35,612 nt of DNA from the NCBI GenBank assembly GCA_017416765.1, contig JAFQBE010000010.1, positions 1 through 35,612 on the forward strand, read 5' to 3'. Of this stretch, positions 3,179 to 29,331 are shown one piece after another. Under the pieces are notes generated by a model that made no database searches, had not been told where the DNA came from, and saw only the letters and a program-made list of their open reading frames with translations. How positions within the stretch are numbered: the stretch's first letter is position 1; each line of letters opens with the position of its first letter. The stretch is from Clostridia bacterium. Its GTDB lineage: Bacteria > Bacillota > Clostridia > Oscillospirales > Acutalibacteraceae. A program made the position numbers and the translations under genes.

Positions 3179-3200
3179 GAATAATAGGTTTTATGTTTAC

Positions 3201-3229
3201 TTGTTTTTATGCCGTAAGTATGATATAAT
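3201..3229 (+). promoter_or_regulatory. Predicted promoter for the rhuM-like gene
   Basis: TTGTTT (3201-3206) and TATAAT (3224-3229) are separated by 17 bp, and a TG one base upstream of the -10 box makes it an extended -10 promoter. It lies 53 bp upstream of the start codon. Confidence 0.65.
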
Positions 3230-3282
3230 TTTTTTAATCTGACTATACTACATTCACTATAGTTAAAAATGAGGATAAGCTT

Positions 3283-12335: not shown

Positions 12336-12366
12336 TAAAAAATTTTTAAAAAATTGAAAAATTTAC

Positions 12367-12395
12367 TTGCATTTTTTGTAATAGTGTGATATCAT
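12367..12395 (+). promoter_or_regulatory. Predicted promoter for rpmE
   Basis: TTGCAT (12367-12372) and TATCAT (12390-12395) are separated by 17 bp. TG at -14/-15 gives an extended -10 promoter. It lies in the gap between addA and rpmE. Confidence 0.65.
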
Positions 12396-12441
12396 TCATT
12401 CGTTATGTAATCTTGATATAACCCGAGAGAGGTGAAAAGAA

Positions 12442-12648
12442 ATGAAACAGGGTATCCATCCCAAGTACGAAAAGACCGAAATCCGCTGCGCTTGCGGTGC
12501 TGTTTTTGAGACTTCCTCAACAAAGCCCAATATGCGTGTTGATATCTGCTCCAAGTGCCACCCCTTCTTCACAGGTAAGCAGAAGCTTGTTGATACAGGC
12601 GGACGTGTTGACAGATTTAAGAAGAGATTTAATCTCGAAAGCAAATAA
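12442..12648 (+). CDS. rpmE: Ribosomal protein bL31 (zinc-binding type)
   Basis: This 68-residue protein has the normal length and sequence of bL31, a protein of the large ribosomal subunit that bridges to the small subunit near the central protuberance. Four zinc-binding cysteines are present (C16, C18, C36, C39; CACG and CSKC), so this is the C+ form that also stores zinc. A GAGAGGTG ribosome binding site precedes the ATG. The gene has its own extended -10 promoter and a perfect terminator, so it is mostly an independent transcript between addA and yigZ. Its codon choice (AAG, ATC, TCC) fits high expression. Confidence 0.96.
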
Positions 12649-12660
12649 TTTGCCGGTTAC

Positions 12661-12689
12661 AAGGCGGTGCTGCGGCACCGCCTTAAATT
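12661..12689 (+). terminator. Rho-independent terminator after rpmE
   Basis: A perfect 10-bp stem, AAGGCGGTGC (12661-12670) with GCACCGCCTT (12675-12684), closes a TGCG loop. It is followed by AAATTTTCT. It lies between the rpmE stop and the yigZ ribosome binding site. Confidence 0.88.
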
Positions 12690-12711
12690 TTCTCTGAAGG
12701 AGCTTTATTTC

Positions 12712-13335
12712 ATGCAGGAATATCTCACTCTCGGAAAAGAAAATAATGATGAATTTACCGTAAAGCATTCGCGCTTTATCGGTTATGCAAAGCCTGTGCA
12801 GACGCAGGAGGATGCGGTTGCTTTTATTAATGAAATAAAAGCAAAGCATTGGGATGCAAAGCACAATGTTTATGCCTACATACTGCGTGACGGTCAGATT
12901 AAACGCTATTCGGACGACGGTGAACCGCAGGGTACTGCGGGGATACCCGTGCTTGATGTTCTTCAGAAAGAAGGGCTTACCGATTGCGTTGTTGTGGTTA
13001 CGCGCTATTTTGGCGGCATACTTCTCGGCGGCGGCGGTCTTGTTCGTGCGTATTCTCATGCGGCAAAGCTTGCTGTTGATGCAGGCGGAGTAATTAAAAT
13101 GTCGCTTTGTGTCCGCGCGGAATGTGAGTGTGATTACGGCTTTTACGGCAAACTCGCTTCCCTTATTCCCGAATGCGGCGGAACTGTAGAAAACAGCGAT
13201 TTTACCGATATAGTCAAGGTTACTTTTACCATGCCGAAAAATTTGTTTGAACCTTTCTGTGCAAAGCTTGTAGATACCAGCTTCGGAAAGGTCGAAGCAA
13301 AGGCAATTGACGAACTTTTTGCACAAATAAGCTAA
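12712..13335 (+). CDS. yigZ: YigZ/IMPACT-family protein
   Basis: The 207-residue protein belongs to the YigZ/UPF0029 IMPACT family. The N-terminal half holds the signature region with SDDGEPQGTAG (about 67-77) and RYFGG followed by GGGGLVRAYSHAA (about 99-121). The C-terminal half is the usual ferredoxin-like domain. The exact role is unsettled: eukaryotic IMPACT modulates GCN2, and bacterial members have been linked to nucleic acid or translation-related functions. The start is the ATG at 12712 with GAAGGAGC upstream; a longer frame to 12667 would run through the rpmE terminator stem and is rejected. Confidence 0.92.
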   Translation: MQEYLTLGKENNDEFTVKHSRFIGYAKPVQTQEDAVAFINEIKAKHWDAKHNVYAYILRDGQIKRYSDDGEPQGTAGIPVLDVLQKEGLTDCVVVVTRYFGGILLGGGGLVRAYSHAAKLAVDAGGVIKMSLCVRAECECDYGFYGKLASLIPECGGTVENSDFTDIVKVTFTMPKNLFEPFCAKLVDTSFGKVEAKAIDELFAQIS

Positions 13336-13414
13336 TTTTAAAAAATAAAAAGGGTATTTTGAAATTTTATTGTATAATAAATAAAAGTGATTTTTATGAA
13401 AGGCGGTGGGCTTT

Positions 13415-14419
13415 GTGGCAGATACAGTAAGAGAAATTACAGAAAAAAACGAACATCTTGTTTTTTCACCCAATGCTTGCTTTTCGGATTCTTCTTTGGG
13501 CAGAAAGCTGCCCGAAACTCCGTGCCAAATCCGTACCTGTTTTCAGCGCGACAGGGACAGGATTATACACTGTAATGCGTTCCGCCGCTTGAAGCACAAA
13601 ACCCAGGTTTTTCTATCACCCGAGGGCGACCATTACCGTACCCGCCTTACGCATACGCTTGAAGTGTCGCAGATTGCGCGCACCATTGCCGCAGGTCTGC
13701 GCCTTAACGAAAATCTTACCGAGGCAATAGCACTCGGACACGATTTGGGTCACACACCCTTCGGCCACGCGGGCGAACGCGCGCTGAACGATGTGCATCC
13801 CGGCGGTTACCGCCATTATGAGCAGAGTGTGCGTGTTTGCGAATACCTTGAAAATTCCGGCAAAGGTCTTAACCTTACAGCCGAAGTTATTGACGGCATT
13901 CGCTGCCATACAAGCGGCGTAGAAGCAAAAACGCTTGAAGGCAGAATAGTTCGCCTTGCAGATAAGGTTGCATATATAAATCACGATATTGACGATTCGG
14001 TAAGGGCGGGCGTAATGTGCGAAACCGATGTTCCGTCTGCTGTTCGCAAGGTTTTAGGTGAAACCAAATCGCAGCGCATAACTACCGTTATCCGTTCTGC
14101 AATAAGCAACAGCGGTGCGGATATCTGCCTTGACCCTGAAATTGCCGAAGCGGTAAAAGAGCTTCGCAGCTTTATGTTTGAGCGTGTATATACAAACCCC
14201 TACTGCAAAAGTGAAGAGAGCAAGGCTGACACCATGATAAAACAGCTTTATCACTATTTTGCGGAAAACCCGGAGGAAATGCCCAATTCATATGAAGAAA
14301 TCTGTTTTCGCGAGGGAGCAGACAGGGCGGCATGCGATTATATTTCCGGTATGACGGACAGGTTTGCCGTCAGCACATTTACGCGCCTTTTTGTTCCGGA
14401 TTCATGGGTAATCCGATAA
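13415..14419 (+). CDS. dgt: Deoxyguanosinetriphosphate triphosphohydrolase-like protein (HD domain)
   Basis: This 334-residue HD-domain protein belongs to the dGTPase family, which cleaves dNTPs to the deoxynucleoside and tripolyphosphate. Metal-binding motifs are visible: His80 in RTRLTHTLEV, then GHDLGHTPFGH from 108 with the HD pair at 109-110, and a later IDDSVRAG stretch. Length fits the short Firmicute type. Of two in-frame GTG codons, the one at 13415 is chosen because AGGCGG lies 8 bp upstream; the GTG at 13406 overlaps that site. The gene sits directly before dnaG, a common arrangement in Clostridia that links dNTP control with replication priming. The true substrate range (dGTP only or several dNTPs) is not readable from sequence. 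Confidence 0.92.
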   Translation: MADTVREITEKNEHLVFSPNACFSDSSLGRKLPETPCQIRTCFQRDRDRIIHCNAFRRLKHKTQVFLSPEGDHYRTRLTHTLEVSQIARTIAAGLRLNENLTEAIALGHDLGHTPFGHAGERALNDVHPGGYRHYEQSVRVCEYLENSGKGLNLTAEVIDGIRCHTSGVEAKTLEGRIVRLADKVAYINHDIDDSVRAGVMCETDVPSAVRKVLGETKSQRITTVIRSAISNSGADICLDPEIAEAVKELRSFMFERVYTNPYCKSEESKADTMIKQLYHYFAENPEEMPNSYEEICFREGADRAACDYISGMTDRFAVSTFTRLFVPDSWVIR

Positions 14420-14478
14420 TTATTATAAACAATATATAGTAACTGTGCTTTTTAGTAAGCACAATTTAGGAGTACGCA

Positions 14479-16236
14479 ATGGCAGTAAGCAGATTAAGTG
14501 AAGATTTTCTTCGCGAGCTTCGGGATAAGAATGAAATTTCCGAGGTTATAGGCAGCTATGTCAATCTGCGTCAGCGCGGTACTACAATGACGGGCTTGTG
14601 TCCGTTCCATAACGAAAAAACCCCGTCTTTTACCGTCTATCTCGAAACGCAGTCTTATTATTGCTTCGGCTGCGGTGCGGGCGGCGATGTTATAACCTTT
14701 GTGCGCAATATGGACAACCTCGGCTATATTGATGCTGTCAAGGTGCTTGCCCAGCGTGCAGGTATGGCTTTACCTGAGGATGGCTTTGACGATACCATTA
14801 GCAAACGCCGCCGCAGAATACTTGAAGCCAACAGGGAAGCGGCAAGGTTTTTCCATTCCACCCTTGTAAGTGATAAGGGTAAAACCTGCCTTGATTATTT
14901 CCTCGGCAGGGGATATTCTATGGCTACTATCCGCCGTTTTGGTATGGGCTACGCGCCCGATGAATGGCGCGGGCTTTATGATTATCTGCGGGCAAAGGGC
15001 TTTGCTTCGGGCGAGCTTGTTGATGCTAATCTCGTGCGCAAAAGCGAAAAGGACGGCAAAGTAAATTATTACGATAATTTCCGTAACCGCGCAATGGTAC
15101 CTATAATTGATGTGCGCGGCAATGTTGTAGCCTTCGGCGGCAGAGTGCTCGACGATTCAAAGCCGAAATACATCAATACCTCCGATACGCTTGTGTATAA
15201 GAAAGGTGCGGGTGTTTTTGCACTCAACCTTGCAAAGGACAGCGGCTCAAGAAGCCTTATTATAACGGAAGGGTATATGGATACAATCGCCCTTCATCAG
15301 GCAGGCTTTAAAAATACGATTGCTTGTTTGGGTACAGCCTTGCCGGACGAGCAGGTTAATTTAATCAGCCGCTATGCTGATGAAGTGCTTTTAGCTTACG
15401 ATTCTGATGAGGCAGGGCAGAAGGCTGTACGCAGAGCCATTCAGGCTTTTGAACGCACGGGGGTTAAGGTCCGTGTGCTTGCCTTAAAGGGTGGCAAAGA
15501 CCCCGATGAAATAATTAAAAAGTTCGGTCCCGAGCGTTTCAGAATGATAGTTGACGGCGCAGAGAACGATATTGAATACCGCCTTAATAATGTGCGCAGT
15601 CGCTATAATGTTATGAGTGATGACGGTAAAATCGGCTTTATGCGTGAAGCAGTCGGTGTGCTTGCCGCTATCGGTTCTGAAATTGAGCGCGATGTTTATA
15701 TTACCAAGCTTTCAAATGAACTGAATATAGCCAAGGAAGCCATAACCTCGCAGGTGAATTCTGTGCGCTATAAAAACCGCAGAAACAAAGAAAAGGCAGA
15801 ATTTCAGAAAATTCAGAGTTCTTCTTTTTCGCAGCAGGGCAGACCTGTACCTGTAAGCTCAATCGGCGCAATGAAAGCGGAAGAATCGCTGCTTGCAGCT
15901 CTGGCGCGTCAGCCGAATGTTTATAAAAAATTCTGCGATGTGCTTGATACGGATTTGTTTGTGTCCGATTTCGGTAGAGCCGCTTTCGGTGCGATGCTGC
16001 CGTTTTTGCAAAACGGCGAAGCTGCGGAGCTTACCCTGCTTTCGCAAAGCCTTGAGCAGGAGCATCTTGCCCGTATGGCAGGAATACTTGCAAAGGATAT
16101 TTTAACCGGCAATACCGCTGCCGTATGCAGCGATTGTATAAAACGCCTTCAGGAGGAAAAAGCTAAAACGGATGTGGCTGACCCTTCTGCTTTGAGCGAT
16201 GAAGATTTTATTAAGTTGTTTAAAAAAGATGTGTGA
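14479..16236 (+). CDS. dnaG: DNA primase
   Basis: The 585-residue protein synthesises RNA primers at the replication fork. The N-terminal CHC2 zinc finger has [11 protein letters not shown] (from Cys41) and CFGCGAGGD (from about 62). The TOPRIM catalytic core has the conserved Glu264 in TEGYMD and the acidic AYDSDEAG motif (about 309-316). The C-terminal part (about 450-585) would bind the replicative helicase. Length is normal. A TTAGGAG site precedes the ATG. A small stem (GTGCTT 14445-14450 with AAGCAC 14457-14462) lies just upstream, between dgt and dnaG. The next gene is rpoD, the classic dnaG-rpoD pair. Confidence 0.97.
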
Positions 16237-17581: not shown

Positions 17582-20416
17582 GTGAAGTCCACAAAGCGCA
17601 TTCTTTCCGCAATCCTCGCGCTGTGCATGGTATTCGGCTGTTTCGCAGTCGGTTTCACAGCACAGGCAACAAGCGCTGACCTTCAGGCAGCTATCGATGC
17701 CAACTACGGCAAAGAGCTCGTCTGGAAGGGCGGCAACGTAACAGTTGATAAGACTATCGTTATCAATGGCGATATCGATATCGATTTCAACAACGCAGTT
17801 CTTACCGGTGCAGAAGGTATTTCCGTTCTTAATGTCAAGGGCGGCAAGGTCAACCTCTTCAACGGTACATTCATCGCAAACAGCAAGAGCTACAGCGGTG
17901 AAACAGGCTTTATCAAGAGCCTTATGGCTTACAAACCCGCAGTTAGCGTTAACGGCGGCGATGTAACATTCGATTGCATCACAGCAGTCGGCTCACTCAT
18001 CCGTATCCCCAACAGCGGTACAATCGAAGTAACATCCGGTAACGGTATCAACGCTAACGCCGGTATTGTTACAATCAAGGATTCTATCGCTATCGGTATG
18101 AAGGCTCTCGACAACACAAAGGCTACTGTTGTTATCGAAGATGCTCTCTTCGTAGGTATCTACAAGGCTATCAACGATGTTAAGAAGGTTACATACGCTG
18201 ACGGTTACGAGCAGTACGAAACAATCGATTTCGTTAAGGCTCTCCTTGCAGACGGTGTTACTCTTTCACCCGGCGAAGAAAAGTACGGCGCAGCTCTTAC
18301 AAACAGCCAGGGCGATTTCTCCTTCGGTAGCGTAATTGCAAGCGTTAAGGCTCCCGAGTTTGCTCCTCTTGCTTCCGAATATGCAGATGGCGAGCTTACC
18401 CTTACAGCAGCTACAGGCGCAGCAGACGAAGATAAGGCAGGCGTTCCCAACAGATACTCCTACGATTATCTCCCCGTTTCCGCAACTGTTGACGGCGAAA
18501 AGGTTGCATTTGAAAATGTTGACGGCGTTTACACAGCAAAGGTTGCTGCAAAGGCTAACACAACATACAATGTTGAAACAGAATACAAGCTTTCCCTCAA
18601 GCTCGGCAAGCAGCAGAAGGAAGTAGTTGAAAACGCACTTGATACTGTTGCTAAGTACGCAGATAAGGCTCCCGAACTCCTCTACAGATTCGTTAAGGAT
18701 TTCGAAGCTCTCCGCGATACAGCAATGACTTATGTAACAACTTTCTACAATGCTAAATATGAAGATGTCACAAAGAATTATTTCAGCGGCGAAGCAATGA
18801 ACAGACTTTACGGTATTATTCTTGCTCTCGTTGGTGAAAACTTTAAGGGTCTTGAAGACGGTTCCATGGTTTCTGAAAGCAGAACTGACCTTTGGTACAG
18901 ACAGTCTCCGATTTTCAAGAAAGCATATGACAAAGGTGATTTCGCAACTGCTTATGAAATCGCTGAACAGTTTGATGTTGCTGAATTTGGCAGCTTCTTT
19001 AACGGTTCTCTCTATTACAAGAGAAATGCTGAAGGTGCAGGTGTTGGTCTCATTGAACAGTTCAATGAGTACTATGCAAATGCAATGGAATACATCTACG
19101 GTGGCAGCACAACAGAATTTGCTGATCCCGCAGCTGCAGCAGCATACCTTGCAGAAAATTGGGAAGATATCTACGCAATGGTAGAAGCAGCTATCGTTCT
19201 TGTTGACGAAGCTACAGTTCTTCTTGAAGATCAGGAACTTGTTAACGACCTTAAAGCTATCCTTGGTGGCAGCAGACTTGATACAGTTCTTAGTTATGTC
19301 AATACAGGCAAGAAGTACCTTGATAAGGTTACAAGCAGACTTGATAAGGAACAGATTGCCGCATTCGCAGGTAAGTACGGCGATAAGCTTCCCAAGAAGT
19401 GTGCTGAATATGTAAACAAGTTTATGGATATCGCTTACAACCCCGGCAAGTATTTCGATATTGATGTTAACGGCGATTTCGTAAACCTCATCAGCTTCAC
19501 AGAAACACAGGAAATCATAACACCTGCTGAAAAGCCTGTTATTATTGAAGTTACAGTAAGTGACGGCGGTTCCGTTGATTTCAACGGTGATGTTTTCTCA
19601 ACTGAAACAAGCAAGTACTTTGATTACAACGAAGCAATCAGCATCGTTCCCGCAGCAGCACCCGGCTACAAGTTCAGCCGTATTGTTGTTAACGCAGGTG
19701 GCGCTGTAACAGTTGTTGACGGCGAAACATACACAGCAAAGGCTGCTACAAACACAAAGATCGAAGTTATCTTCGTTCCCGAAGTTACAACAGCAGATTC
19801 CGAAGTTGAAATCGTATTTATGACCGATAAGACTCTCGGCTTCAAGTACCTCGGTTCTGAAACAATCACAGCAGCTCAGTTCGCTATAAGAGGCGAAATG
19901 ATTCTTGATGACTACAATACTGATGCACCCGTATTCAAGGGTACAGAATATCTTGGTCTTGATAAGGATGTAGCAGCTATTTCCGCTGAAATCGAAGCAG
20001 GCGAAGATGTAATCTTTGTATCTGCTCAGTATAAGGCTGACGAAACTGTTAATCGTCCCGCACAGGATGAAGCTATCAAGATGACAGATGCTACCAAGGA
20101 AAACGGCAAGGTATACTTTGAAGCAACGATTTCTGTTCCCGACGGCTACAAGGCTATTGAAGCTGGTATCATGGCTACAAAGAAGGCTGACCTTGCAACA
20201 AAGGACAACATGACAACAGCTCTTTCCGGTACATCCGGTGTTGTCTTTGGTCGTGTTGATGCAAAGGACGACAATGGTTATGTAAAGACCAATGTTGTTT
20301 ATACACTTGGTGTAAAAGCAACAGGTACTGTATATGCTCGTGGTTACATCGTTCTTGTTGACGATGCAGGCAACACAACAATTGAGTACACAGAAATTGT
20401 TAATGTTACTCTTTAA
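17582..20416 (+). CDS. Large secreted protein, probable beta-helix and InlB-type repeat domain
   Basis: This 944-residue protein starts at a GTG with AAGGAGATG upstream. It has a clear signal peptide (hydrophobic core 9-24, then FTAQATSA). Residues about 35-215 show short repeated beta strands with turn glycines and asparagines, typical of a right-handed beta-helix of the pectate-lyase type. Residues about 345-635 look mostly helical and are not recognised. About 645-735 (VTVSDGGSVDFNG to IEVIFVP) resembles an InlB B-repeat-like module. The last 200 residues form beta-rich domains. No LPXTG, dockerin, SLH or catalytic motif was seen. Codon choice (AAC, ATC, TTC, AAG, GTT) is far more biased than in neighbours, suggesting very high expression. 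The function is unknown; it may be a structural or adhesion protein. Confidence 0.82.
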   Translation: MKSTKRILSAILALCMVFGCFAVGFTAQATSADLQAAIDANYGKELVWKGGNVTVDKTIVINGDIDIDFNNAVLTGAEGISVLNVKGGKVNLFNGTFIANSKSYSGETGFIKSLMAYKPAVSVNGGDVTFDCITAVGSLIRIPNSGTIEVTSGNGINANAGIVTIKDSIAIGMKALDNTKATVVIEDALFVGIYKAINDVKKVTYADGYEQYETIDFVKALLADGVTLSPGEEKYGAALTNSQGDFSFGSVIASVKAPEFAPLASEYADGELTLTAATGAADEDKAGVPNRYSYDYLPVSATVDGEKVAFENVDGVYTAKVAAKANTTYNVETEYKLSLKLGKQQKEVVENALDTVAKYADKAPELLYRFVKDFEALRDTAMTYVTTFYNAKYEDVTKNYFSGEAMNRLYGIILALVGENFKGLEDGSMVSESRTDLWYRQSPIFKKAYDKGDFATAYEIAEQFDVAEFGSFFNGSLYYKRNAEGAGVGLIEQFNEYYANAMEYIYGGSTTEFADPAAAAAYLAENWEDIYAMVEAAIVLVDEATVLLEDQELVNDLKAILGGSRLDTVLSYVNTGKKYLDKVTSRLDKEQIAAFAGKYGDKLPKKCAEYVNKFMDIAYNPGKYFDIDVNGDFVNLISFTETQEIITPAEKPVIIEVTVSDGGSVDFNGDVFSTETSKYFDYNEAISIVPAAAPGYKFSRIVVNAGGAVTVVDGETYTAKAATNTKIEVIFVPEVTTADSEVEIVFMTDKTLGFKYLGSETITAAQFAIRGEMILDDYNTDAPVFKGTEYLGLDKDVAAISAEIEAGEDVIFVSAQYKADETVNRPAQDEAIKMTDATKENGKVYFEATISVPDGYKAIEAGIMATKKADLATKDNMTTALSGTSGVVFGRVDAKDDNGYVKTNVVYTLGVKATGTVYARGYIVLVDDAGNTTIEYTEIVNVTL

Positions 20417-20440: not shown

Positions 20441-20611
20441 ATGAAGCTTTATAACAAGCCCGAACTCAATGTTGAAGCATTTGATATTGAAGATGTTATC
20501 ACAACATCAGGCGGCGATAATTATGTTACCGACAATGACGATGCAGAACTTAACAGCGTTTCCGCAGGCATGGAATTCAGCATCGCAGCTAACGGCAACG
20601 ACGAGTTCTAA
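20441..20611 (+). CDS. 56-residue acidic peptide, candidate RiPP precursor
   Basis: This short gene lies 24 bp after the surface protein gene, has a near-perfect AGGAGG site (20425-20430), and shares its strongly biased codon use, so it is very likely translated. The peptide has 13 Asp/Glu, two Lys and no Cys. Its N-terminus holds Y4-x-x-P7-x-L9, the motif by which lasso-peptide leaders bind their PqqD-like partner protein. Next come EDVITT (17-22) and S23-G24-G25, a possible double-glycine type boundary. That would leave a leader of about 25 and an acidic tail of about 31 residues. Genes for a PqqD-like protein, an HPr-kinase-like protein, an exporter and an S26 peptidase start 340 bp downstream. 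The role as substrate of those proteins is inference. Confidence 0.82.
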   Translation: MKLYNKPELNVEAFDIEDVITTSGGDNYVTDNDDAELNSVSAGMEFSIAANGNDEF

Positions 20612-20639
20612 TTAAAAACTTTACTGCAAAATCTCTTTT

Positions 20640-20670
20640 ACGGGCAGGCAGCCAACTGCCTGCCCGTTTT
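20640..20670 (+). terminator. Rho-independent terminator after the peptide gene
   Basis: A perfect 12-bp GC-rich stem, ACGGGCAGGCAG (20640-20651) with CTGCCTGCCCGT (20656-20667), closes a CCAA loop and is followed by a short T run. It separates the surface protein-peptide transcript from the kinase-exporter operon. Confidence 0.92.
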
Positions 20671-20705
20671 CCCTATGCAGTGTTTATTTAATTGTGTCGC
20701 ATTTT

Positions 20706-20730
20706 GTAGGGTCAATTCATGAATTGACCG
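20706..20730. repeat. Palindromic intergenic element (TGTAGGG type, copy 1)
   Basis: GGTCAATTCATGAATTGACC (20710-20729) is a perfect 20-bp palindrome preceded by TGTAG. The layout TGTAGGG, arm, CAT, arm, CG recurs at 20843-20867 with different arms. The gene-free gap 20612-20952 otherwise holds the terminator, an ATGACAAT/ATTGTCAT inverted pair and a degenerate repeat; no convincing promoter for the next operon was found. Confidence 0.6.
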
Positions 20731-20760
20731 AAAAACCAAAGCTATTGCTTTTTTATATTT

Positions 20761-20811
20761 ATGACAATCTTAAATAATTTATTGTCATTCTGAACGAATG
20801 CGAAGAAGCTT
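20761..20811. repeat. Degenerate GTCATTCTGA-type repeat
   Basis: TGTCATTCTGAACG (from 20783) followed by a GAAGAAGCTT end is a diverged half copy of the element at 76-141. An inverted pair, ATGACAAT (20761-20768) and ATTGTCAT (20781-20788), forms its left side. Confidence 0.55.
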
Positions 20812-20842
20812 AAATATTTTACCGCTATCGGTTTATAGAATC

Positions 20843-20867
20843 TGTAGGGGCGCCATCGGGCGTTCGC
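20843..20867. repeat. Palindromic intergenic element (TGTAGGG type, copy 2)
   Basis: TGTAGGGGCGCCATCGGGCG is a second short element with the same TGTAGGG...CAT...CG layout as 20706-20730 but GC-rich arms. Such elements are scattered in clostridial intergenic regions; function unknown. Confidence 0.5.
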
Positions 20868-20952
20868 TAAATCCTCGCGAATCATATTAATTTTTTATTA
20901 GATGTCGGTGTCCTCGACGACTCTTTATAAAAATATTTTTTCCGGAGTAATG

Positions 20953-21663
20953 ATGAAATTCTATTCTATCGCCGGCGTTACCGTCGGTTTTGAAACAAAA
21001 TATGAATTGACTGAAAAACGCAGCCGCCCGTATCTTTGTAAGGAATCGGGCTTTGCTGATTTTATTATAAAACTTGATTACAATAATATTGAAAAAAAGG
21101 CTCTTGAAACTCCGCTTATGACGGAGCAGGACTGGGAATATATGCAAATGGGCTCGAATTTTTACCGCGCCCTGCTCGAATTCGGCGGCTTTATGCTGCA
21201 CGCTTCTGCCGTTGTTGTTGACGGACAGGCTTATTGCTTTTCTGCCCACAGCGGTACGGGCAAATCTACCCACACCTCCCTTTGGCTTGAATTGTTTAAG
21301 GATAGGGGAGCGTTTTTGATTAACGATGATAAGCCCGCTATAAAGCTTGAAAACGGTCGATTTATGGCTTACGGCACACCTTTCAGCGGAAAGCATGATT
21401 TAAATAAAAATACATCTGTTCCTCTTAAAGCAATCTGCTTTATTGAACGCGCCGAAACAAATTCAATTACCCGCTTAAAGCCTGCGGAGGTTTTTTCGCT
21501 TCTGCTTAATCAGACTATCCGCCCTGCAGAGGAAGCAAAGCTCGATAAACTTTGTGAATTAATTGATAAGCTGCTGACTGATATACCTGTTTATAAGCTC
21601 AAGTGTAATATAAGTCTTGATGCTGCGCAGTTAGCCTACAATGAAATGAGTGGTTCAAACTGA
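20953..21663 (+). CDS. HPr kinase-like protein (HprK-related, RiPP/lasso-cluster type)
   Basis: The 236-residue protein has the C-terminal HPr-kinase fold without the HprK regulatory N-terminal domain. The P-loop SAHSGTGKSTHT lies at 97-108, preceded by LHASAV (82-87); the acidic INDDKPAI segment is at 123-130, then GTPFSGK at 141-147. Proteins of this type occur beside lasso-peptide genes, where some phosphorylate the precursor peptide. The ATG at 20953 is chosen because GGAG is five bases upstream; an adjacent ATG (20950) and a longer frame to 20902 are less likely. It opens a compact operon, and its stop overlaps the exporter start. True HprK is unlikely because of length and context. The substrate could be the 56-residue peptide (Thr/Ser), which is inference. 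Confidence 0.85.
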   Translation: MKFYSIAGVTVGFETKYELTEKRSRPYLCKESGFADFIIKLDYNNIEKKALETPLMTEQDWEYMQMGSNFYRALLEFGGFMLHASAVVVDGQAYCFSAHSGTGKSTHTSLWLELFKDRGAFLINDDKPAIKLENGRFMAYGTPFSGKHDLNKNTSVPLKAICFIERAETNSITRLKPAEVFSLLLNQTIRPAEEAKLDKLCELIDKLLTDIPVYKLKCNISLDAAQLAYNEMSGSN

Positions 21664-23369
21664 AATTTCTGAATAAATTCAAAAGCGATAATAAGGATGT
21701 TTTTCCGTGGCTTAAAGCCCGCGTTAAACCTTACCGCGGCAGAATAGCGCTGCTTATTATTGCAAACGCTGTTATGTCGTTGCTTGTCGGTGTAAATGCC
21801 TATGTTTCAAAGGATTTGATGGACTCTGCTACCTCCGGCAACCGTGACAGACTTATAAAAGTAAGCATAGCTGTGCTTGCACTGATTGTTTTTCAGCTTG
21901 GTTTAAGGCTTATTCAGAGCCTTGTTGACAGCAAGCTGCGAATTGATATGGAAGCGGATTTTCGCAACTATTTTGTGCGCAATCTTTTTGATAAGGATTA
22001 TCTTAAAATCACTTCTTACCACAGCGGCGACCTTATGACTCGTATGACTAACGATACTAACTGTATTATCGACGGTCTTGTTTCTATAATTCCCGGCGCT
22101 GTCGGTCTTGTGCTTCGAATTGTGGTGGCTTTCCTTGCGCTGTTTTTGCTCAATAAACAGCTTGCGGTTATCTTTTTTGTTATCGGTCTTTTTATTTCGC
22201 TGGGTACCCGCCTTGTAAGAAAGTTTCTTAAAGGCATGTACCATAAAATCCAGAAATCTGAAAGTGCGGTTCGTTCTTTTTCCCAGGAAATTATCGAAAA
22301 TCTGCTTGTTGTAAGCGTTTTTGATGCCGCAGAAGATGTTTCCAAAAAACAGAAAGAGCTGCTTGAAACCCATGCGAATAACCGTTGGTACCGCACCAAA
22401 TTCTATTCGGGTGTAAGTGCCGTGCTGTCGCTTGGTATGCGCGGCGCATATATGCTTGTTTGCATTCTCTGTGCATTTCAACTGCTTGAAAATACCATTA
22501 CCTATGGTTCAATTACTGCTATACTTCAGCTTGTAAATCAGCTTCAGTCACCGTTTAAAAATTTATCGGGCATTTTTCCGGTATACTATCAGATGCTTGC
22601 TTCAACCGAACGCATTTTGGAAATTATTGATATCAGCGGTGAGGGTGAAAGCGAAAAGTGTGATGTTGAAAAGTTTTATTCATCGCTTGATACCTTTGAG
22701 TTCAAAAATGTTACCTTCAGCTATGGCAATGATGATGTGCTTGAAGATACATCACTTTCGCTTAAAAAAGGCGATTTTGCGGCAATTACAGGCATTTCAG
22801 GCATCGGCAAAAGCACAATGATGAAAATGATGCTCGGCGTTCTCAAGCCGCAAAACGGCGAAGTTTTCTTTAATACTGAAAACGGCTGCTTTAAACCCGG
22901 AAAAGCCTACAGAAATATGTTTTCTTATGTTCCGCAGGGCAATATGCTGCTTTCAGGCACTATTTATGATAATATTACCTTTATGAATCCCGATAAATCT
23001 CCCGATGATGTTCAGAAAGCCATTAAACTCAGCTGTTCCGATGATTTCATTGCCGAACTGCCTGACGGGCTTGATACTGTTATCGGTGAGCGCGGCAGAG
23101 GTCTTTCGGAAGGTCAGGTACAGCGCCTTGCAATTGCGCGTGCAATTCTTCATAATGCGCCCGTTGTTCTGCTTGATGAAGCAACTTCCGCACTCGATGA
23201 AGCTACGGAAGAACGCGTGCTGAATAACCTTAAAACCCTTGAAAATGTAACTTGTATTATTATTTCGCATAAAAAAGCGGCACTTAATGTCTGCAATAAA
23301 GAAATACGAATAGAAAATAAAAAATTCAACAGTTTTGATTTGAAACAGGAGTTAACCAATGAAAATTAA
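21660..23369 (+). CDS. ABC exporter, fused membrane and ATPase domains, probable CTG start
   Basis: This 569-residue type I exporter half-transporter has six membrane helices (about 25-305) followed by an ATPase domain with Walker A GISGIGKST, signature LSEGQ and Walker B VVLLDEATSALDE. No C39 peptidase domain is attached. The first ATG (21774) falls inside the first membrane helix and would truncate the protein. The open frame reaches back to a stop at 21642-21644, and the only start-like codon before the N-terminal amphipathic segment is CTG at 21660, overlapping the kinase stop as CTGA. This suggests translational coupling from a rare CTG start. By context it should export the peptide product; multidrug or lipid export cannot be excluded. 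Confidence 0.85.
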   Translation: MKFLNKFKSDNKDVFPWLKARVKPYRGRIALLIIANAVMSLLVGVNAYVSKDLMDSATSGNRDRLIKVSIAVLALIVFQLGLRLIQSLVDSKLRIDMEADFRNYFVRNLFDKDYLKITSYHSGDLMTRMTNDTNCIIDGLVSIIPGAVGLVLRIVVAFLALFLLNKQLAVIFFVIGLFISLGTRLVRKFLKGMYHKIQKSESAVRSFSQEIIENLLVVSVFDAAEDVSKKQKELLETHANNRWYRTKFYSGVSAVLSLGMRGAYMLVCILCAFQLLENTITYGSITAILQLVNQLQSPFKNLSGIFPVYYQMLASTERILEIIDISGEGESEKCDVEKFYSSLDTFEFKNVTFSYGNDDVLEDTSLSLKKGDFAAITGISGIGKSTMMKMMLGVLKPQNGEVFFNTENGCFKPGKAYRNMFSYVPQGNMLLSGTIYDNITFMNPDKSPDDVQKAIKLSCSDDFIAELPDGLDTVIGERGRGLSEGQVQRLAIARAILHNAPVVLLDEATSALDEATEERVLNNLKTLENVTCIIISHKKAALNVCNKEIRIENKKFNSFDLKQELTNEN

Positions 23370-23625
23370 AGCCGGATACAAAATCAGAAAAATGTGCGGC
23401 AGCAGTATTGTGATTGCCGTAGGTAAGCAAGCAGAGGAATTCAACGGTATGATTACCCTTAATGACAGCGCAGAGCTGCTGTGGTGCAAGCTTGCTGAGG
23501 GTGCAGAAAGGCAGGAGCTTATTGACCTTCTTTGCGCTGAATACGGTATTGACGAAGCTACAGCTGCAGCAGATGTTGATGAATTTATTAAAACGGCTGA
23601 AGGAGCAGGTTTGCTTGAGCAGTAA
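23359..23625 (+). CDS. PqqD-family protein (RiPP recognition element)
   Basis: The 88-residue protein has the small winged-helix PqqD fold pattern: a basic N-terminal beta part (KAGYKIRKMCG), ITLNDSAELLW in the middle, and a helical end with VDEFIKTAEGAGLLEQ. PqqD-like proteins bind leader peptides and deliver precursors to modifying enzymes; the lasso B1 protein is of this class. It starts at an ATG with AGGAG upstream. It overlaps the exporter end by 11 bp and the peptidase start by 11 bp, so expression is tightly coupled. The YxxPxL motif of the peptide at 20441-20611 is the expected kind of ligand. The modifying enzyme it would serve is not in the window, unless it is the kinase. Confidence 0.88.
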   Translation: MKIKAGYKIRKMCGSSIVIAVGKQAEEFNGMITLNDSAELLWCKLAEGAERQELIDLLCAEYGIDEATAAADVDEFIKTAEGAGLLEQ

Positions 23626-24070
23626 TAACAGTCTTGAAAAGGTTGTGCCTGAAATAAGGCGTTGCCTTGATGCAGGTAAGCTTGCCGAGTTTGAAACACA
23701 CGGTTTCAGCATGATTCCGCTGCTGCACGATGGCGGAGATAGGGTAGTGCTGAAAAAGGCTGAAAGCGCACTTAATGTGAATGATGTTGCCTTTTGCAAA
23801 ACTGATGACGGCAGGTATGTTCTGCACCGCGTTATCGAAAAAAAGAACGGCGGCTATGTTTTGAAGGGCGATAATTGCTATACCTGCGAATTTTGTAAAG
23901 GTGATGAAGATGTTATCGGCGTTGCTGTCTGCTTTATCCGCCGCGGAAAACGCATCGATATTACAAGTCCTTGCTATAAGTTCTATGTCCGTTTCAGAAA
24001 ACAGGCTTTGAAGCTGTGGCTGCTTTTCTGGCGGGTTGCTGACAGGGTGGTTAAATTACGCAGAAAATAA
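23615..24070 (+). CDS. S24/S26-family serine peptidase (SipW-like)
   Basis: This 151-residue protein carries signal-peptidase motifs: Ser32 in GFSMIP, the HRV box with His71, and KGDN with Asp86. These fit the SipW/ER-type Ser-His arrangement rather than the Ser-Lys pair of ordinary signal peptidase I. There is no N-terminal membrane anchor; a C-terminal hydrophobic stretch (LKLWLLFW, about 132-139) could attach it to the membrane. The start is the TTG at 23615, with AGGAG nine bases upstream inside pqqD; no in-frame ATG lies near. In this setting it is the best candidate for removing the leader peptide. It might also process the neighbouring surface protein. Confidence 0.85.
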   Translation: MSSNNSLEKVVPEIRRCLDAGKLAEFETHGFSMIPLLHDGGDRVVLKKAESALNVNDVAFCKTDDGRYVLHRVIEKKNGGYVLKGDNCYTCEFCKGDEDVIGVAVCFIRRGKRIDITSPCYKFYVRFRKQALKLWLLFWRVADRVVKLRRK

Positions 24071-24090
24071 ACGGGTCAGGGGTGTAAACG

Positions 24091-25104
24091 GTGGCTAAAA
24101 GGGTCACAGTAATTATACTTACTGTAATTTATTGCTTTACGTTTTGGCTGAATGTATATTCAGCCAATATTGTTATTGACGGCATTGCGAAGGAGCGCGA
24201 CTGGGTGGATTCCTTTGGTGAGGTTGCTGTTTCTTCAAAGGATATTTCAAACTGTGCGGTTGAGTTTGCAAGTGTAGCATCCGTAGTCGATTACAGCAAT
24301 AATATTATTTATTTTTGCTTTAATGTTATTGTTGACGGCATTGTTGATGAAACCACTCCGCACGGTGTTTCTGTATCGGTCAATAGTGCTGAACCTGTGC
24401 GGATTTCAAGGGATTCTGTTTCAGAATATGATACCGTTCTTTACAGCTATACTGCGGCAGTTTATGAACACAGCAGTACCGATTTCAGCGTTGAAGCGGC
24501 ATTGGGAATAAAGCACGGTATTGATACTGTTTATGAGATTGAGGTTCAGTTTATTGACGGTAACGGCGATTATTCCAACGCTCATTCTGTTACTTTGCCT
24601 GAACCGCCAACACAGGAAACCACAACGGCATATTACCCTGAAAACACTACATTACCTGCCGACGGTTATACCGAAAGTAATGTAGCTGAAAAATCAACAA
24701 CAGTAAAAGAAACAACTAAAAAGCATACTACAACAAAGAAAGAAACTACTGTTCGTACCACTGTTCCAAAAACTGAAAAACTTACTTTTGAACCTGATAA
24801 TATAACTGAAAAGCAGAGCGAAACCACAAAATTGCAAGATGAAACAACGGTAAAAATAGTAACGGTTTATGTTCCTGTTACAGATAAATCGCCGACTGAA
24901 AGCGTTACGGAAAATGTGCAAGCAGAAGTTACTGCTTCAAGTGATAATGCCGAAAACGGAAACAGTGTAAGCGATAATTCAACCTTTAAAATCCGTAAAG
25001 AAATTGCTTATGTAGGTATAGCGGTTCTGTTTATAGTTACCTTCGGTATGTGCGTGATTATCAATATGAATTACGATAAAAACAACGGTAACGGCAGTAA
25101 GTAA
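24091..25104 (+). CDS. Membrane-anchored surface protein with Thr-rich stalk
   Basis: This 337-residue protein starts at a GTG with AGGGGTG upstream, 20 bp after the peptidase gene. A signal peptide (2-25) is followed by an extracellular domain (about 26-170) that opens with IVIDGIAKERDW, resembling the IDGxxxExxW start of CBM9-like/DOMON beta-sandwich domains. A long Thr/Glu/Lys-rich stalk with repeated ETT and TTK follows (about 170-295). Near the C-terminus is one membrane helix (IAYVGIAVLFIVTFGMCVII) and a short positive cytoplasmic tail. Operon position suggests a cell-surface partner of the exported product, for example a receptor or immunity-type protein; this is inference. A terminator follows. 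Confidence 0.8.
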   Translation: MAKRVTVIILTVIYCFTFWLNVYSANIVIDGIAKERDWVDSFGEVAVSSKDISNCAVEFASVASVVDYSNNIIYFCFNVIVDGIVDETTPHGVSVSVNSAEPVRISRDSVSEYDTVLYSYTAAVYEHSSTDFSVEAALGIKHGIDTVYEIEVQFIDGNGDYSNAHSVTLPEPPTQETTTAYYPENTTLPADGYTESNVAEKSTTVKETTKKHTTTKKETTVRTTVPKTEKLTFEPDNITEKQSETTKLQDETTVKIVTVYVPVTDKSPTESVTENVQAEVTASSDNAENGNSVSDNSTFKIRKEIAYVGIAVLFIVTFGMCVIINMNYDKNNGNGSK

Positions 25105-25152: not shown

Positions 25153-25207
25153 GTAAAATTGAATAAAAAAGCATTGTTATTTTTGTGAGCCTTTTAATAA
25201 ATATTTG

Positions 25208-25236
25208 TTGAAAATATATAGCGCGTATGTTAAAAT
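25208..25236 (+). promoter_or_regulatory. Predicted promoter for the sugar oxidoreductase-glucosidase operon
   Basis: TTGAAA (25208-25213) and TAAAAT (25231-25236) are separated by 17 bp, with a TG extended -10. It is 41 bp upstream of the first gene. No other convincing promoter or T-tailed terminator was seen until 33896. Confidence 0.65.
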
Positions 25237-25276
25237 TAAACAAAATAAGTATTATATTTTAGGAGGACTTATTATT

Positions 25277-26098
25277 ATGGCACTTCCCGTAGCATTACAG
25301 CTTTATACGGTTCGTGATGAAATGGCTGCCGATTTTGAAGGTACGCTTAAAAAGGTTAAGGAAATGGGCTATGCAGGTGTTGAATTTGCCGGTCTTTTCG
25401 ACAAAACAGCTGCCCAGGTAAAGGCACTTTGTGAAGAGAACGGTCTTGTTCCCATTTCGGCTCATGTTCCGCTTGACGATATGGCAGCTGACCCTCAGGG
25501 TGTTCTTTCGGTGTATGCTGAAATCGGCTGCAAATTTGTTGTTGTACCTTATCTTACCGAAGAACGCAGACCCGGTGCAGACGGCTGGGAAAAAACCATT
25601 GCCGATATCCGCGTTTGCTGCGAAAAAGCAAAGGAACTCGGTATGACCATGCTTTACCATAATCACGATTTTGAATTTGTAAAGCTTGATGGCGAATACG
25701 CTCTTGATATCCTTTACAACACAATCCCTGCTGACCTTCTTCAGACAGAACTTGACACCTGCTGGGTAAATGTCGGCGGTGAAAATCCCGCAGATTATGT
25801 CAGAAAGTATACAGGTCGTGCTCCCGTTGTTCATCTTAAAGACTTTGTTATGAAGGGTAAGGGCGGCAAGCTCTATGAGCTTATCGGTATTGAAGATGAA
25901 GGCGATACCGCTGAGGAAGATGCATTCAGCTTTGCTCCCGTAGGTAGCGGCTGTCAGGATATGCCCGCAATTCTCGATGCAAGCATAGCTGCAGGTGCGC
26001 AGTGGGTTGTTGTTGAGCAGGACAGACCTGCAAAGGGTCACACCCCCATGCAGTCAGCAGAAATGGGTAGAGAGTACCTTAAAACTCTCGGTTGGTAA
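25277..26098 (+). CDS. Sugar phosphate isomerase/epimerase family protein (TIM barrel), copy 1
   Basis: The 273-residue protein has the xylose-isomerase-like TIM barrel (AP endonuclease 2 family) shared by IolE, IolI and related epimerases. Metal-ligand segments are in order: YHNHDFEF, ELDTCW, VHLKDF and VVVEQD. The start is the ATG at 25277 with AGGAGG upstream; a longer frame to 25205 runs into the promoter. It is followed by a Gfo/Idh/MocA gene, and the same gene pair is repeated just downstream. Some members of this fold act on 3-keto sugars or glycosides made by Gfo/Idh/MocA enzymes, including C-glycoside and alternative glycosidase pathways. The precise reaction here is unknown. Confidence 0.88.
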   Translation: MALPVALQLYTVRDEMAADFEGTLKKVKEMGYAGVEFAGLFDKTAAQVKALCEENGLVPISAHVPLDDMAADPQGVLSVYAEIGCKFVVVPYLTEERRPGADGWEKTIADIRVCCEKAKELGMTMLYHNHDFEFVKLDGEYALDILYNTIPADLLQTELDTCWVNVGGENPADYVRKYTGRAPVVHLKDFVMKGKGGKLYELIGIEDEGDTAEEDAFSFAPVGSGCQDMPAILDASIAAGAQWVVVEQDRPAKGHTPMQSAEMGREYLKTLGW

Positions 26099-26115
26099 AT
26101 TAAGGTTAAATCCGG

Positions 26116-26129
26116 TTTAACCGGTTGAA
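26116..26129. promoter_or_regulatory. Possible LacI-type operator-like palindrome
   Basis: TTTAACCGGTTGAA has a perfect AACCGGTT core with nearly symmetric flanks, and TCCGGTTTAA abuts it. The centre-CG layout resembles LacI/GalR-family sites. It lies between the first epimerase and the first oxidoreductase gene. No LacI regulator is in the window, so this is weak. Confidence 0.3.
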
Positions 26130-26163
26130 TTAAATATTATTATTTGAAAGGATTGATTATCCA

Positions 26164-27318
26164 ATGGCAAGTATTCTTGATAAATTCAAGGAAGAAATTA
26201 CAGAAGAAAAGAATTATGACACCGGCAAAAAGATTAAGGTCGGTATTATCGGTACAGGTTGGATTGCTGAAGCTCACTTAAAGGCTTATCAGCAGTGTCC
26301 CGATGTTCAGTTTGTCGGTATGGCAGACCTTGTTCCGGGTAAGGCAGAGGCTTTCTGCGACCAGTTCGGTGTTGATAAAACAGGCATCAACTTCTATAAC
26401 AGCCACAAAGAACTTATTGATAACGAAGAGCTTGACTGTGTCAGCGTTTGTACATACAACGCAACCCATGCAGAGTGTACAATTTACGCTCTTGAACACG
26501 GCGTAAACGTACTCCTTGAAAAGCCCATGTGCGTTACGCTTGAAGAAGCTATTGCTATCTGCAAGGCAGAAAAGGCAAGCGGCAAGATTCTTTCAATCGG
26601 CTTCCAGCCCAGATTTGACCCCAATATGCAGATGGTCAAGAAGATTGTTGAATCAGGCGAACTCGGCGAAATCTACTATATCCAGACAGGTGGCGGCCGC
26701 CGCAGAGGTATTCCGACCCCGTTCGGTACTTCCTTCATCGAAAAGGAAACAGCAGGTATCGGTGCACTTGGTGATATCGGTTGCTATTCACTTGATATGG
26801 TTCTCAACGCTATCGGTTATCCTAAGCCCCTTACAGTTTCGGGCTACAAATCCGATTTCTTCGGCAAGAGCACAAAGTACTCCAATAAGCCCGAATATGC
26901 TGATATTTTCGGCGTTGATGACTTTGCAGCAGGCTTTATCCGTCTTGAAGGCGGCATAATTCTCGACTTCAGAATTGCATGGGCTATGCACCTTGATACA
27001 TCAGGCGATACAATTATTCTCGGTAAGCACGGCGGTCTTCGCATTCCTTCAACAGAGTGCTGGAACGGCTCAATTGGCGGTCCGATGACCATTTATCACG
27101 ATGTAGCAGGCAAGCAGGTTGAAACTGTTATTCCCGAGCTTGACAATCCGTACGATAACTTCTATCTCAAGATTCGTTCCTTCCTTGATGCTTCAATGAA
27201 TGGCGGCGAACCTCCCGTACCCTCAAGCCAGATTATCTACAATCAGGCTATTATTGACGGTATTGCCAAATCTGCAGAACTCGGCAGAGAAATTGAAATT
27301 GAAATTCCCGAAATCTAA
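26164..27318 (+). CDS. Gfo/Idh/MocA-family oxidoreductase, copy 1
   Basis: This 384-residue NAD(P)-dependent sugar dehydrogenase-type protein has a Rossmann domain with GIIGTGWIAEAH (about 28-38) and the family EKP motif (Lys120). The C-terminal substrate domain includes GALGDIGCYSLDM, where a Tyr replaces the more usual His. A 24-residue N-terminal extension precedes the Rossmann fold. The family oxidises or reduces sugar hydroxyls, often at C3, with bound or free NAD. Codon use is strongly biased towards C-ending codons, more than in copy 2, suggesting higher expression. It is paired with the TIM-barrel gene upstream (65-bp gap). The substrate cannot be told from sequence. Confidence 0.9.
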   Translation: MASILDKFKEEITEEKNYDTGKKIKVGIIGTGWIAEAHLKAYQQCPDVQFVGMADLVPGKAEAFCDQFGVDKTGINFYNSHKELIDNEELDCVSVCTYNATHAECTIYALEHGVNVLLEKPMCVTLEEAIAICKAEKASGKILSIGFQPRFDPNMQMVKKIVESGELGEIYYIQTGGGRRRGIPTPFGTSFIEKETAGIGALGDIGCYSLDMVLNAIGYPKPLTVSGYKSDFFGKSTKYSNKPEYADIFGVDDFAAGFIRLEGGIILDFRIAWAMHLDTSGDTIILGKHGGLRIPSTECWNGSIGGPMTIYHDVAGKQVETVIPELDNPYDNFYLKIRSFLDASMNGGEPPVPSSQIIYNQAIIDGIAKSAELGREIEIEIPEI

Positions 27319-27338
27319 AGTGTTTTTTGCTTTGTCTT

Positions 27339-27360
27339 GGTGCGTCGTTATCGGCGCACC
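27339..27360 (+). other. Intergenic hairpin between the two oxidoreductase/epimerase modules
   Basis: GGTGCGTCG (27339-27347) pairs with CGGCGCACC (27352-27360), with one T-G wobble, around a TTAT loop. No T run follows, so it is not a standard terminator. It may stabilise the upstream mRNA segment, matching the higher codon bias of the first module. Confidence 0.5.
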
Positions 27361-27430
27361 GGGACTATGCCTTTAATGCAAAGTTTCGGTTTTGTGTTAA
27401 AGGGATAGTAATTTCTGGGAGGATTATTTA

Positions 27431-28219
27431 ATGGGTAATATTAAAGTAGGTGTACAGCTTTTTACGCTGCGCGACCATATAAAAAATTATGAAGATACGG
27501 ACAAAACCTTTGCCTGGCTAAAAAATGAACTTGGTGTTGACACGGTTCAGATTTCCGCTATAGGCAATTTTCCTGCCGAGCAGCACGCTGAGCTTGTAAA
27601 AAAATACGGCTTTGATGTCTGCGTTACGCATAAACCGTGGGACAGAATGTTGAATGACCTTGATAAGCTGATTGATGAGCATATCGCACTTGGTTGTGAC
27701 CAGATTGGTCTTGGCTGTATGCCCGATGAATTCCGTACGGATTTGGCGGCTGTGCGTAGGTTTGTCGCAATGGCAAATGAAATCGGCAGAAAAATGAAGA
27801 ACAGGGGACTTACCTTTGGCTATCACAACCATGCCATTGAATTTGCAAAGCTTGAGGATGGCAGAACAATTATGGATGTTCTGATTGAAGAAACCGATCC
27901 CGAAGTTTTCTTCTTTATTCCCGATACCTATTGGATTCATATGGGCGGTGTGAATGAAGCCGAATACCTTAAAAAGCTCAAGGGCAGAGTAAAGGTTTGC
28001 CACTTCAAGGATTGGGCTGTAAAGCTCGGCGAAAATGTCGGCTCAATTACAGAACTCGGCTGCGGTATGCTTGATTTTGATGCCTGCTATAAAGCTTGCG
28101 AAGAAATCGGTGCAAGCTATATAGTTTATGAGCAGGATAATAATTACGCATCAAGTCCGCTTGAATCAACAGCTATAAGCTATAAAAACCTTGCAGCAAT
28201 ACACGAAAGAAACAAATAA
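27431..28219 (+). CDS. Sugar phosphate isomerase/epimerase family protein (TIM barrel), copy 2
   Basis: The 262-residue protein is a second xylose-isomerase-like TIM barrel. Its metal-ligand segments parallel those of copy 1: YHNHAIEF, IPDTYW, CHFKDW and YEQDN. Sequence similarity to copy 1 is clear (GVQLFTLRD versus ALQLYTVRD at the start) but far from identical, so the two probably act on different intermediates. TGGGAGG precedes the ATG. It pairs with the Gfo/Idh/MocA gene 41 bp downstream. Roles such as 3-keto-glycoside lyase or hydrolase or 2-keto epimerase are possible, but none is proven by the sequence. Confidence 0.88.
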   Translation: MGNIKVGVQLFTLRDHIKNYEDTDKTFAWLKNELGVDTVQISAIGNFPAEQHAELVKKYGFDVCVTHKPWDRMLNDLDKLIDEHIALGCDQIGLGCMPDEFRTDLAAVRRFVAMANEIGRKMKNRGLTFGYHNHAIEFAKLEDGRTIMDVLIEETDPEVFFFIPDTYWIHMGGVNEAEYLKKLKGRVKVCHFKDWAVKLGENVGSITELGCGMLDFDACYKACEEIGASYIVYEQDNNYASSPLESTAISYKNLAAIHERNK

Positions 28220-28260
28220 TTGCCAAATGTTTTAAATCTCTTGGTAAGGAGGCGTGAATT

Positions 28261-29331
28261 ATGAAATATGCATTGATAGGCTGCGGTCGTGTTTCGCCTA
28301 ACCATATTGTTGCCGCAACAAAGAACAATCTTGAGCTTGTCGGTCTTTGCGATGTTTCCAAGAATGCCGTGTATGAGCTTAAGGAAAAATATCCGCTTAT
28401 CAAAAATGTAAAGTTCTATAAGGACTATAAAAAACTGCTTGAAGAGCAGAAGCCCGAGCTTGTTGCAATAGCTACCGAAAGCGGTAAACACGCCGATATT
28501 GCGGTAGACTGTATAAACGCAGGCTGTAATGTTATTATTGAAAAACCGATAGCTTTATCAATTGCAGATGCACAGAAAATTATTGATGCAGCTGAAAAAA
28601 TGAATGTGAAGGTTGCCGCAAACCATCAGAACAGATTCAATGCATCCATTCAGAAAATACGCAGTGCGGTTGAGCAGGGGAGATTTGGAAGAATTTTCCA
28701 TGCAACAACTCAAATTCGTTGGAGCCGTTCGGAAAGCTACTATAAGCAGGCTGACTGGCGGGGCACTTGGGAGATGGACGGCGGTGCACTGATGAATCAG
28801 TGTATACATAATATTGACTTGCTCAACTGGATGCTCGGCGAAGAGCCTGCTGAAGTTATCGCAATGACGGATAACCTTAACCATAGCTATATTGAGTGTG
28901 AAGATGTCGGTCTTGCCATAGTTCGTTATAAGAACGGTGCGTACGGCGTTGTTGAGGGCACAGTCAATATTTTCGGCGGAGATATGGAAGAGGCACTTTG
29001 TATCTTTGGCGAAAACGGTACGGTTAAGGCTGACGGTACAATAAATAACATTATCGAGAACTGGCGATTTGCTGATGAGCTTGATGATGAGGAAGAAGTA
29101 AAGTCAGCGTTTTCTGCTCCTGTTGAACATATCTACGGCAAAGGTCATACAGCACTGTATGCTGATATGGTTGAAGCGATTGAGCAGGACAGAAAGCCTT
29201 ATGTTGACATGTATGCGGGCAAAAAAGCACTTGAGCTTGTGCTCGCAATCTATCAGGCAGCGGCTATGGGAAAGAGCGTTAAATTCCCGACAGATAATAT
29301 TTCTACACTTGATTTCAAAGGAAGATTTTAA
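28261..29331 (+). CDS. Gfo/Idh/MocA-family oxidoreductase, copy 2
   Basis: The 356-residue protein has a Rossmann fold starting at residue 4 (LIGCGRVSPNH), the IIEKP motif with Lys95, and the substrate-domain segment GGALMNQCIHNIDLLNWMLG, which includes the conserved His. This last motif is closer to the canonical family than in copy 1, supporting distinct substrates. It resembles UDP-sugar and inositol dehydrogenase-like members in overall layout, but no specific subfamily can be named. AAGGAGG lies upstream of the ATG. The gene continues directly into the GH13 gene (24-bp gap). Confidence 0.9.
   Translation: MKYALIGCGRVSPNHIVAATKNNLELVGLCDVSKNAVYELKEKYPLIKNVKFYKDYKKLLEEQKPELVAIATESGKHADIAVDCINAGCNVIIEKPIALSIADAQKIIDAAEKMNVKVAANHQNRFNASIQKIRSAVEQGRFGRIFHATTQIRWSRSESYYKQADWRGTWEMDGGALMNQCIHNIDLLNWMLGEEPAEVIAMTDNLNHSYIECEDVGLAIVRYKNGAYGVVEGTVNIFGGDMEEALCIFGENGTVKADGTINNIIENWRFADELDDEEEVKSAFSAPVEHIYGKGHTALYADMVEAIEQDRKPYVDMYAGKKALELVLAIYQAAAMGKSVKFPTDNISTLDFKGRF

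Follow-up and report, generated by a model that had tools for sequence, protein, structure and literature searches.

What would be produced by a gene set that holds an HprK-like kinase, a stand-alone PqqD-like protein, an ABC exporter and an S26 peptidase, and lacks a lasso cyclase? Such a set lies at positions 20441-25104 of the stretch of clostridial DNA analysed here (the window, 35,612 nucleotides). The original prediction read it as an unclassified RiPP-like system, and all the parts that it named were found: each of its six ORFs lies intact on the + strand. We consider it likely that the locus encodes a clostridial phosphopeptide (RiPP) pathway working like that of the linear polyphosphorylated peptides (LPP), a family of Bacilli demonstrated experimentally in Paenibacillus (Popov et al. 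2026, PMC13381572). Among the products foreseen, a secreted phosphopeptide comes closest to this reading, and the same logic has been shown for LPP. The reading is based on gene content, conserved motifs, co-occurrence and synteny, from which we infer phosphorylation, cut site, export and partnership. The features of the locus are as follows.

17582..20416, + strand: large secreted protein, 944 aa, with signal peptide; no Pfam match reaches the cut-off
20441..20611, + strand: precursor peptide, 56 aa, with an AGGAGG ribosome site; one of the 18 precursors of the leader profile
20640..20667, + strand: predicted 12-bp hairpin followed by a short T tract, possible terminator (fold z-score -6.85; terminator-like site 20647-20664)
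20950..21663, + strand: HprK/PEPCK-fold kinase (LppK-like); probable start ATG 20950 or 20953
21774..23369, + strand: MsbA-like ABC exporter ORF without peptidase domain (Pfam ABC_membrane 7e-27, ABC_tran 2e-26)
23359..23625, + strand: stand-alone PqqD/RRE (Pfam PqqD 7.9e-15)
23615..24070, + strand: S26/SipW-like peptidase, 151 aa, TTG start at 23615; Ser32-His71-Asp86
24091..25104, + strand: secreted protein with Thr-rich stalk and C-terminal membrane helix; no Pfam family

Enzymes of the cluster

The exporter, PqqD and S26 peptidase genes overlap or nearly so, and the kinase gene lies close ahead of them. The true start of the exporter is probably upstream of 21774, since a homologue from the same genus has 565 aa, compared with 531 aa here. 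Because the hairpin and its T tract sit 3′ of the precursor gene, between it and the kinase gene, the upstream secreted protein and the precursor may share one transcript and the enzymes another. The protein encoded at 24091-25104 has a counterpart in the same position at a locus of the same genus (L036). Downstream of the cluster (25205-29331) two sugar-isomerase-like TIM barrels alternate with two GFO/IDH/MocA-type oxidoreductase ORFs; this segment resembles an ordinary sugar/inositol-type operon.

Pfam named the PqqD protein and the exporter, gave a weak match for the S26 peptidase and none for the kinase. As a PDB sequence search with the kinase was likewise empty at E-values up to 1, we ran a fold search with an AF2 model, built with an alignment of 15 Bacilli kinases as input (pLDDT 74, pTM 0.72; residues 1-62 poor). 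The best PDB folds were PEPCK (5e-6) and HprK/P (1kkl, 1e-5), with modest TM-scores. The Walker A motif and an Asp were invariant in an alignment of 16 kinases, and Walker A was conserved in both the clostridial and the Bacilli LPP groups. The best curated match (NCBIfam) was ScmC, with an E-value of 1.2e-9 and a score of 38 bits where the cut-off is 125.

The window PqqD matched the lasso RRE TbiB1 in the PDB (2.2e-6); LppB (9x8z/9x90) was not among the matches of this sequence search. Its best curated model was lasso_PqqD_Strm (3.2e-8, below cut-off). The suggestion that a SipW-like S26 peptidase takes the place of the lasso B2 protease agrees with an intact catalytic triad: the Ser32, His71 and Asp86 columns were invariant in the window enzyme and 11 Bacilli LPP peptidases. 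In NCBIfam this peptidase matched sigpep_I_arch (1.8e-5, below its cut-off).

The predicted absence of lasso enzymes was borne out. Neither B2 nor cyclase was found in the window, and the 98%-complete genome gave no match to B2 (PF13471) and only three fragmentary matches to the cyclase model PF00733, each covering about 40-75 of its 354 positions and none full-length.

The gene set recurs in relatives. Of 200 family genomes, 99 contain a kinase homologue, which in 80 belongs to the kinase group of the window (E < 1e-29). We examined 40 of the 43 loci that ranked highest after the window (three were skipped), which with the window made 41. Near the kinase gene, 31 of these loci have an S26 peptidase gene, 21 a PqqD gene, 13 an exporter gene and eight an NTP-transferase gene. 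The kinase in 99 of 200 genomes and the recurring neighbours in the 41 loci make the recurrence more than chance. For the 20 loci with no local PqqD, 19 genomes had a PqqD match elsewhere; some of these matches fall within long proteins, probably enzymes of another kind. Several loci (L040, L041, L042, L047, L053 and others) contain kinase-S26 pairs beside housekeeping genes, with neither PqqD nor exporter.

Precursors and secreted partners

The leader of the window precursor carries YxxP and a DVIT-T-S junction, and its core is acidic. A leader profile was built from 18 kinase-adjacent precursors, which were found at 13 of the 42 loci examined; the window precursor, itself a seed, was the best match in its own genome (5e-14). 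The E-values of the profile left a clean gap (3.3e-9 or better versus 0.98 or worse). Loci with PqqD carried a precursor more often than loci without it (11/21 versus 2/20, p = 0.006).

Searched over the 200 family genomes at E 0.01, the profile found 108 places in 51 genomes, with up to eight per genome. Of 40 additional precursor neighbourhoods, taken mostly from the top of the ranking, 34 had no kinase or S26 gene within the fetched stretch. The kinase was present in 50 of the 51 leader-positive and 49 of the 149 leader-negative genomes. When the 13 seed genomes were excluded, the numbers were 37/38 versus 49/149 (p = 4e-14, a value that is too small, as the genomes share ancestry and kinship was left uncorrected). 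One leader-positive genome (G164) had no kinase match, two others had only the radical-SAM-linked kinase group, and 32 of the 80 genomes with the kinase group of the window had no leader match.

We aligned 64 precursors from 53 loci to the profile that 18 of them had built. The fixed columns held Tyr in 62, Pro in 60, Phe in 52, Asp in 49, Thr or Ala in 48 and the junction Ser in 53 of the 64 peptides. The junction pattern, [VI]-[IL]-[TA]-x-S, would fit cleavage of the signal-peptidase type after Thr/Ala, with the Ser as putative phosphate acceptor. The cores are acidic (D+E 19%, K+R 1.8%) and contain three Cys in 1581 residues. The same genome encodes a second leader peptide of this type on contig C28 (1.6e-4). 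This peptide has neither a junction Ser nor a secreted partner encoded directly upstream; a locus of the same genus (L188) encodes what appears to be its orthologue. On the same contig (L003), a PqqD-like domain starts a longer protein whose gene adjoins a radical SAM gene; this is a different system.

The original prediction missed that the peptide is one of a leader family whose members are scattered over genomes, and that it is paired with the secreted protein encoded at 17582-20416, outside the segment that it covered. The gene of this 944-aa protein ends 24 nt ahead of the precursor gene. We defined a partner as an ORF of at least 300 aa with a signal-peptide-like start within 330 nt upstream, calling signal peptides by a crude hydropathy rule alone, and used other ORFs of the same loci as controls. 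We set aside 13 precursors with a partner extending beyond the stretch, as well as nine controls of the same kind. A partner was found directly upstream of 30 of 51 evaluable precursors and 22 of 202 control ORFs (p = 4e-12, again too small a value for genomes of shared ancestry); the other 21 precursors had none. The gaps are typically 2-70 nt, often 12-16. The association of the genes is well supported; that the two products act as a pair we infer from it.

Some of the partners checked with Pfam have domains of adhesin type (InlB-type repeats, BspA LRR, Big_2, MAM, DUF285) and one is a subtilase with LRR; others, including that of the window, match nothing. Two C-terminal domain families were found among 43 collected upstream proteins, one with nine members (including the window protein, in which the domain spans residues 782-944) and one with 14. 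An LPXTG motif or C-terminal membrane helix was found in none of 39 partners. We draw no support from this, since only 4 of 51 other secreted proteins in the loci have one (p = 0.13). At locus L209 the core of the precursor encoded at 2686-2802 ends in GWSDWWTPEF and the upstream secreted protein (2841-3902) in GWSDWWTPEY, as if peptide core and protein C-terminus might stand in for each other; L175 is a weaker case. As a general rule this likeness was rejected: only these two of 763 comparisons exceeded the best of 19,606 random ones.

Relation to LPP and alternative readings

The LPP cluster consists of a precursor, an HprK-like kinase, an RRE, a SipW-like peptidase, an MsbA-like exporter and an NTP-transferase; the kinase places several phosphates onto one Ser, and the peptidase together with the RRE removes the leader by a cut after Thr, with the Ser at +3 (PMC13381572). 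By analogy, the PqqD/RRE of the window would bind the YxxP part of the short leader, and the HprK-like kinase would phosphorylate the conserved Ser just past it (Ser23 here). With help from the RRE, the S26 peptidase would cut near Ile20/Thr21/Thr22, perhaps after Thr21 given the preference of signal peptidases for small residues, and the MsbA-like exporter would send the acidic core out. The same module probably also serves the precursors encoded elsewhere in family genomes. As most evaluable precursor genes directly follow the gene of a secreted protein, the exported peptide probably acts together with, or upon, the large surface protein encoded upstream.

The window could also be an ordinary LPP cluster throughout, its differences being divergence and the pairing with secreted proteins having no function; we regard this as possible, at clearly less than even chance. 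The two systems share the YxxP leader start, the HprK-like kinase, the stand-alone RRE, the SipW-like S26 peptidase with its Ser-His-Asp triad, the MsbA-like exporter and the lack of a cyclase. One to three precursors are reported near an LPP cluster, from a precursor search covering 5 kb around it (PMC13381572). We collected 32 Bacilli loci by the published LPP leader motif (P. alginolyticus was not among them); kinase, PqqD and S26 occurred together in 20, the rest being partly cut by the 8-kb stretch.

Phylogeny, however, separates the two. In the kinase tree (102 rows) the 24 Bacilli LPP rows fell on one side of a branch with support 92/95, the 62 clostridial and radical-SAM-linked rows were grouped with 99/91 and the 16 presumed lasso kinases with 100/99; the program warns that the long branches of LPP and lasso meet. 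The 'presumed lasso' rows come from LPP genomes, from neighbouring PqqD and kinase genes with a longer kinase and no S26 gene, and are called lasso by these marks alone. In the RRE tree (85 rows), which rests on a short alignment of few columns and has no row for the prototype LppB, LPP (26 rows) had support 96/77, presumed lasso (21 rows) 100/98 and the clostridial and radical-SAM rows (38) 96/96. The partner pairing differs too: a signal-peptide partner preceded 30 of 51 family precursors but only 1 of 25 evaluable Bacilli LPP precursors, and that one was an ABC transporter. Moreover, the leader of the window has YxxP and the junction Ser but not the HQxIxFET part of the LPP consensus YxxPxVLxHQxIxFETxxS, its RRE has a longer N-terminal loop, its family precursors are dispersed, and it has no NTP-transferase (LppN), a gene present in eight of the 41 related loci and in a cluster on contig C8 of the same genome.

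Because the kinase and RRE clades, the leader after YxxP and the NTP-transferase differ, we do not file the window as LPP; judged by these sequence characters, the set is a parallel lineage and not LPP in the strict sense. The original interpretation holds for the most part but has been overtaken by the work on LPP: the word 'unclassified' is not fully apt any more, as the logic has been published for Paenibacillus (PMC13381572). The kinase and RRE of the window fall outside the LPP clades. What is new here is a clostridial lineage with dispersed, partner-linked precursors. The main text of that paper contains none of the words clostrid-, surface, secreted, radical SAM or orphan. For the logic of the gene set it was the only source found, together with a report on lasso clusters from the rumen that carry HPr kinase and PqqD (PMC7533575), and dispersed precursors or secreted partners were not found in print, in a search that reached few subscription papers and preprints. 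According to PMC13381572, LPP and paeninodin have no known role, and the tight pairing with a secreted surface protein in this family offers a concrete partner candidate for such peptides. In the family most non-seed leader places examined lie away from the enzymes, and precursor searches confined to the enzyme cluster miss many substrates.

The phosphopeptide reading can be extended to a general surface-peptide system, in which one kinase/RRE/peptidase/export module would serve many dispersed peptides, each encoded next to a large secreted protein of its own; once exported, the phosphopeptide would bind the C-terminal domain of that protein and hold or assemble it at the envelope in place of a sortase-type anchor. 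We think this extension unlikely.

It is somewhat more doubtful still that the peptide stays in the cytosol as a kinase-regulated helper of the translation or secretion of the secreted protein. Precursor genes that follow secreted-protein genes at 2-70 nt at many loci would be placed as translationally coupled helpers, and an exporter adjoins only 13 of 41 kinase loci; yet the window encodes a leader peptidase and an exporter, in keeping with a product that leaves the cell, and RiPP pathways typically combine a stand-alone RRE with a leader peptidase (PMC13381572).

A decayed lasso cluster is very improbable: paeninodin-type clusters share the HprK-like kinase, the PqqD-like B1, the ABC exporter and a YxxP/WxxP leader with the window, and its PqqD has the lasso matches given above, but the window lacks the B2 protease and the cyclase, its kinase and RRE stand apart from the presumed lasso rows, the genome has no B2 match, the cyclase-less set recurs in relatives and the S26 triad is intact.

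A related cluster with a radical SAM enzyme

The original prediction also stated that the window holds no radical SAM or YcaO enzyme, and it proposed a genome search for these and for unlinked B2 and cyclase genes. No radical SAM gene is among the genes of the window cluster, and the 98%-complete genome gave no Pfam match to YcaO. The search for B2 was likewise empty and that for the cyclase yielded the fragments described; a radical SAM enzyme, absent from the cluster, was found elsewhere in the genome, in a related cluster on contig C8 inside an exopolysaccharide locus (L005, G000:C8:26000-45000, 9678-15538). This cluster encodes an exporter, PqqD, the radical SAM enzyme, a 93-aa peptide with two Cys, a kinase, an S26 peptidase and an NTP-transferase (PF14907, 1.6e-40). 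We set its radical SAM enzyme aside as a modifier of the window peptide, as the C8 cluster comes with a peptide, PqqD, kinase and S26 peptidase of its own. A modifying enzyme encoded elsewhere, the other option of the original prediction, is not needed.

The C8 peptide and two homologues (L111, L128) start with Y-x-A-P-E-S and have an I-A-x-S junction; these two elements point to a leader logic shared with the window. In the C8-type kinase group a radical SAM gene was linked in 20 of 21 loci and PqqD in 16 of 21.

A kinase and a PqqD protein also occur together in the SynChlorMet cassette (NCBIfam TIGR04249-51). ScmC is the best curated match of the window kinase, far below cut-off; the window cluster differs from the cassette in having no radical SAM gene, and the C8 cluster is nearer to it in gene content.

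The kinases of the second group (L111-L130 and L005) are 29-38% identical to the window kinase over part of its length, and their genes often lie beside those of giant secreted proteins of about 1400-2400 aa.
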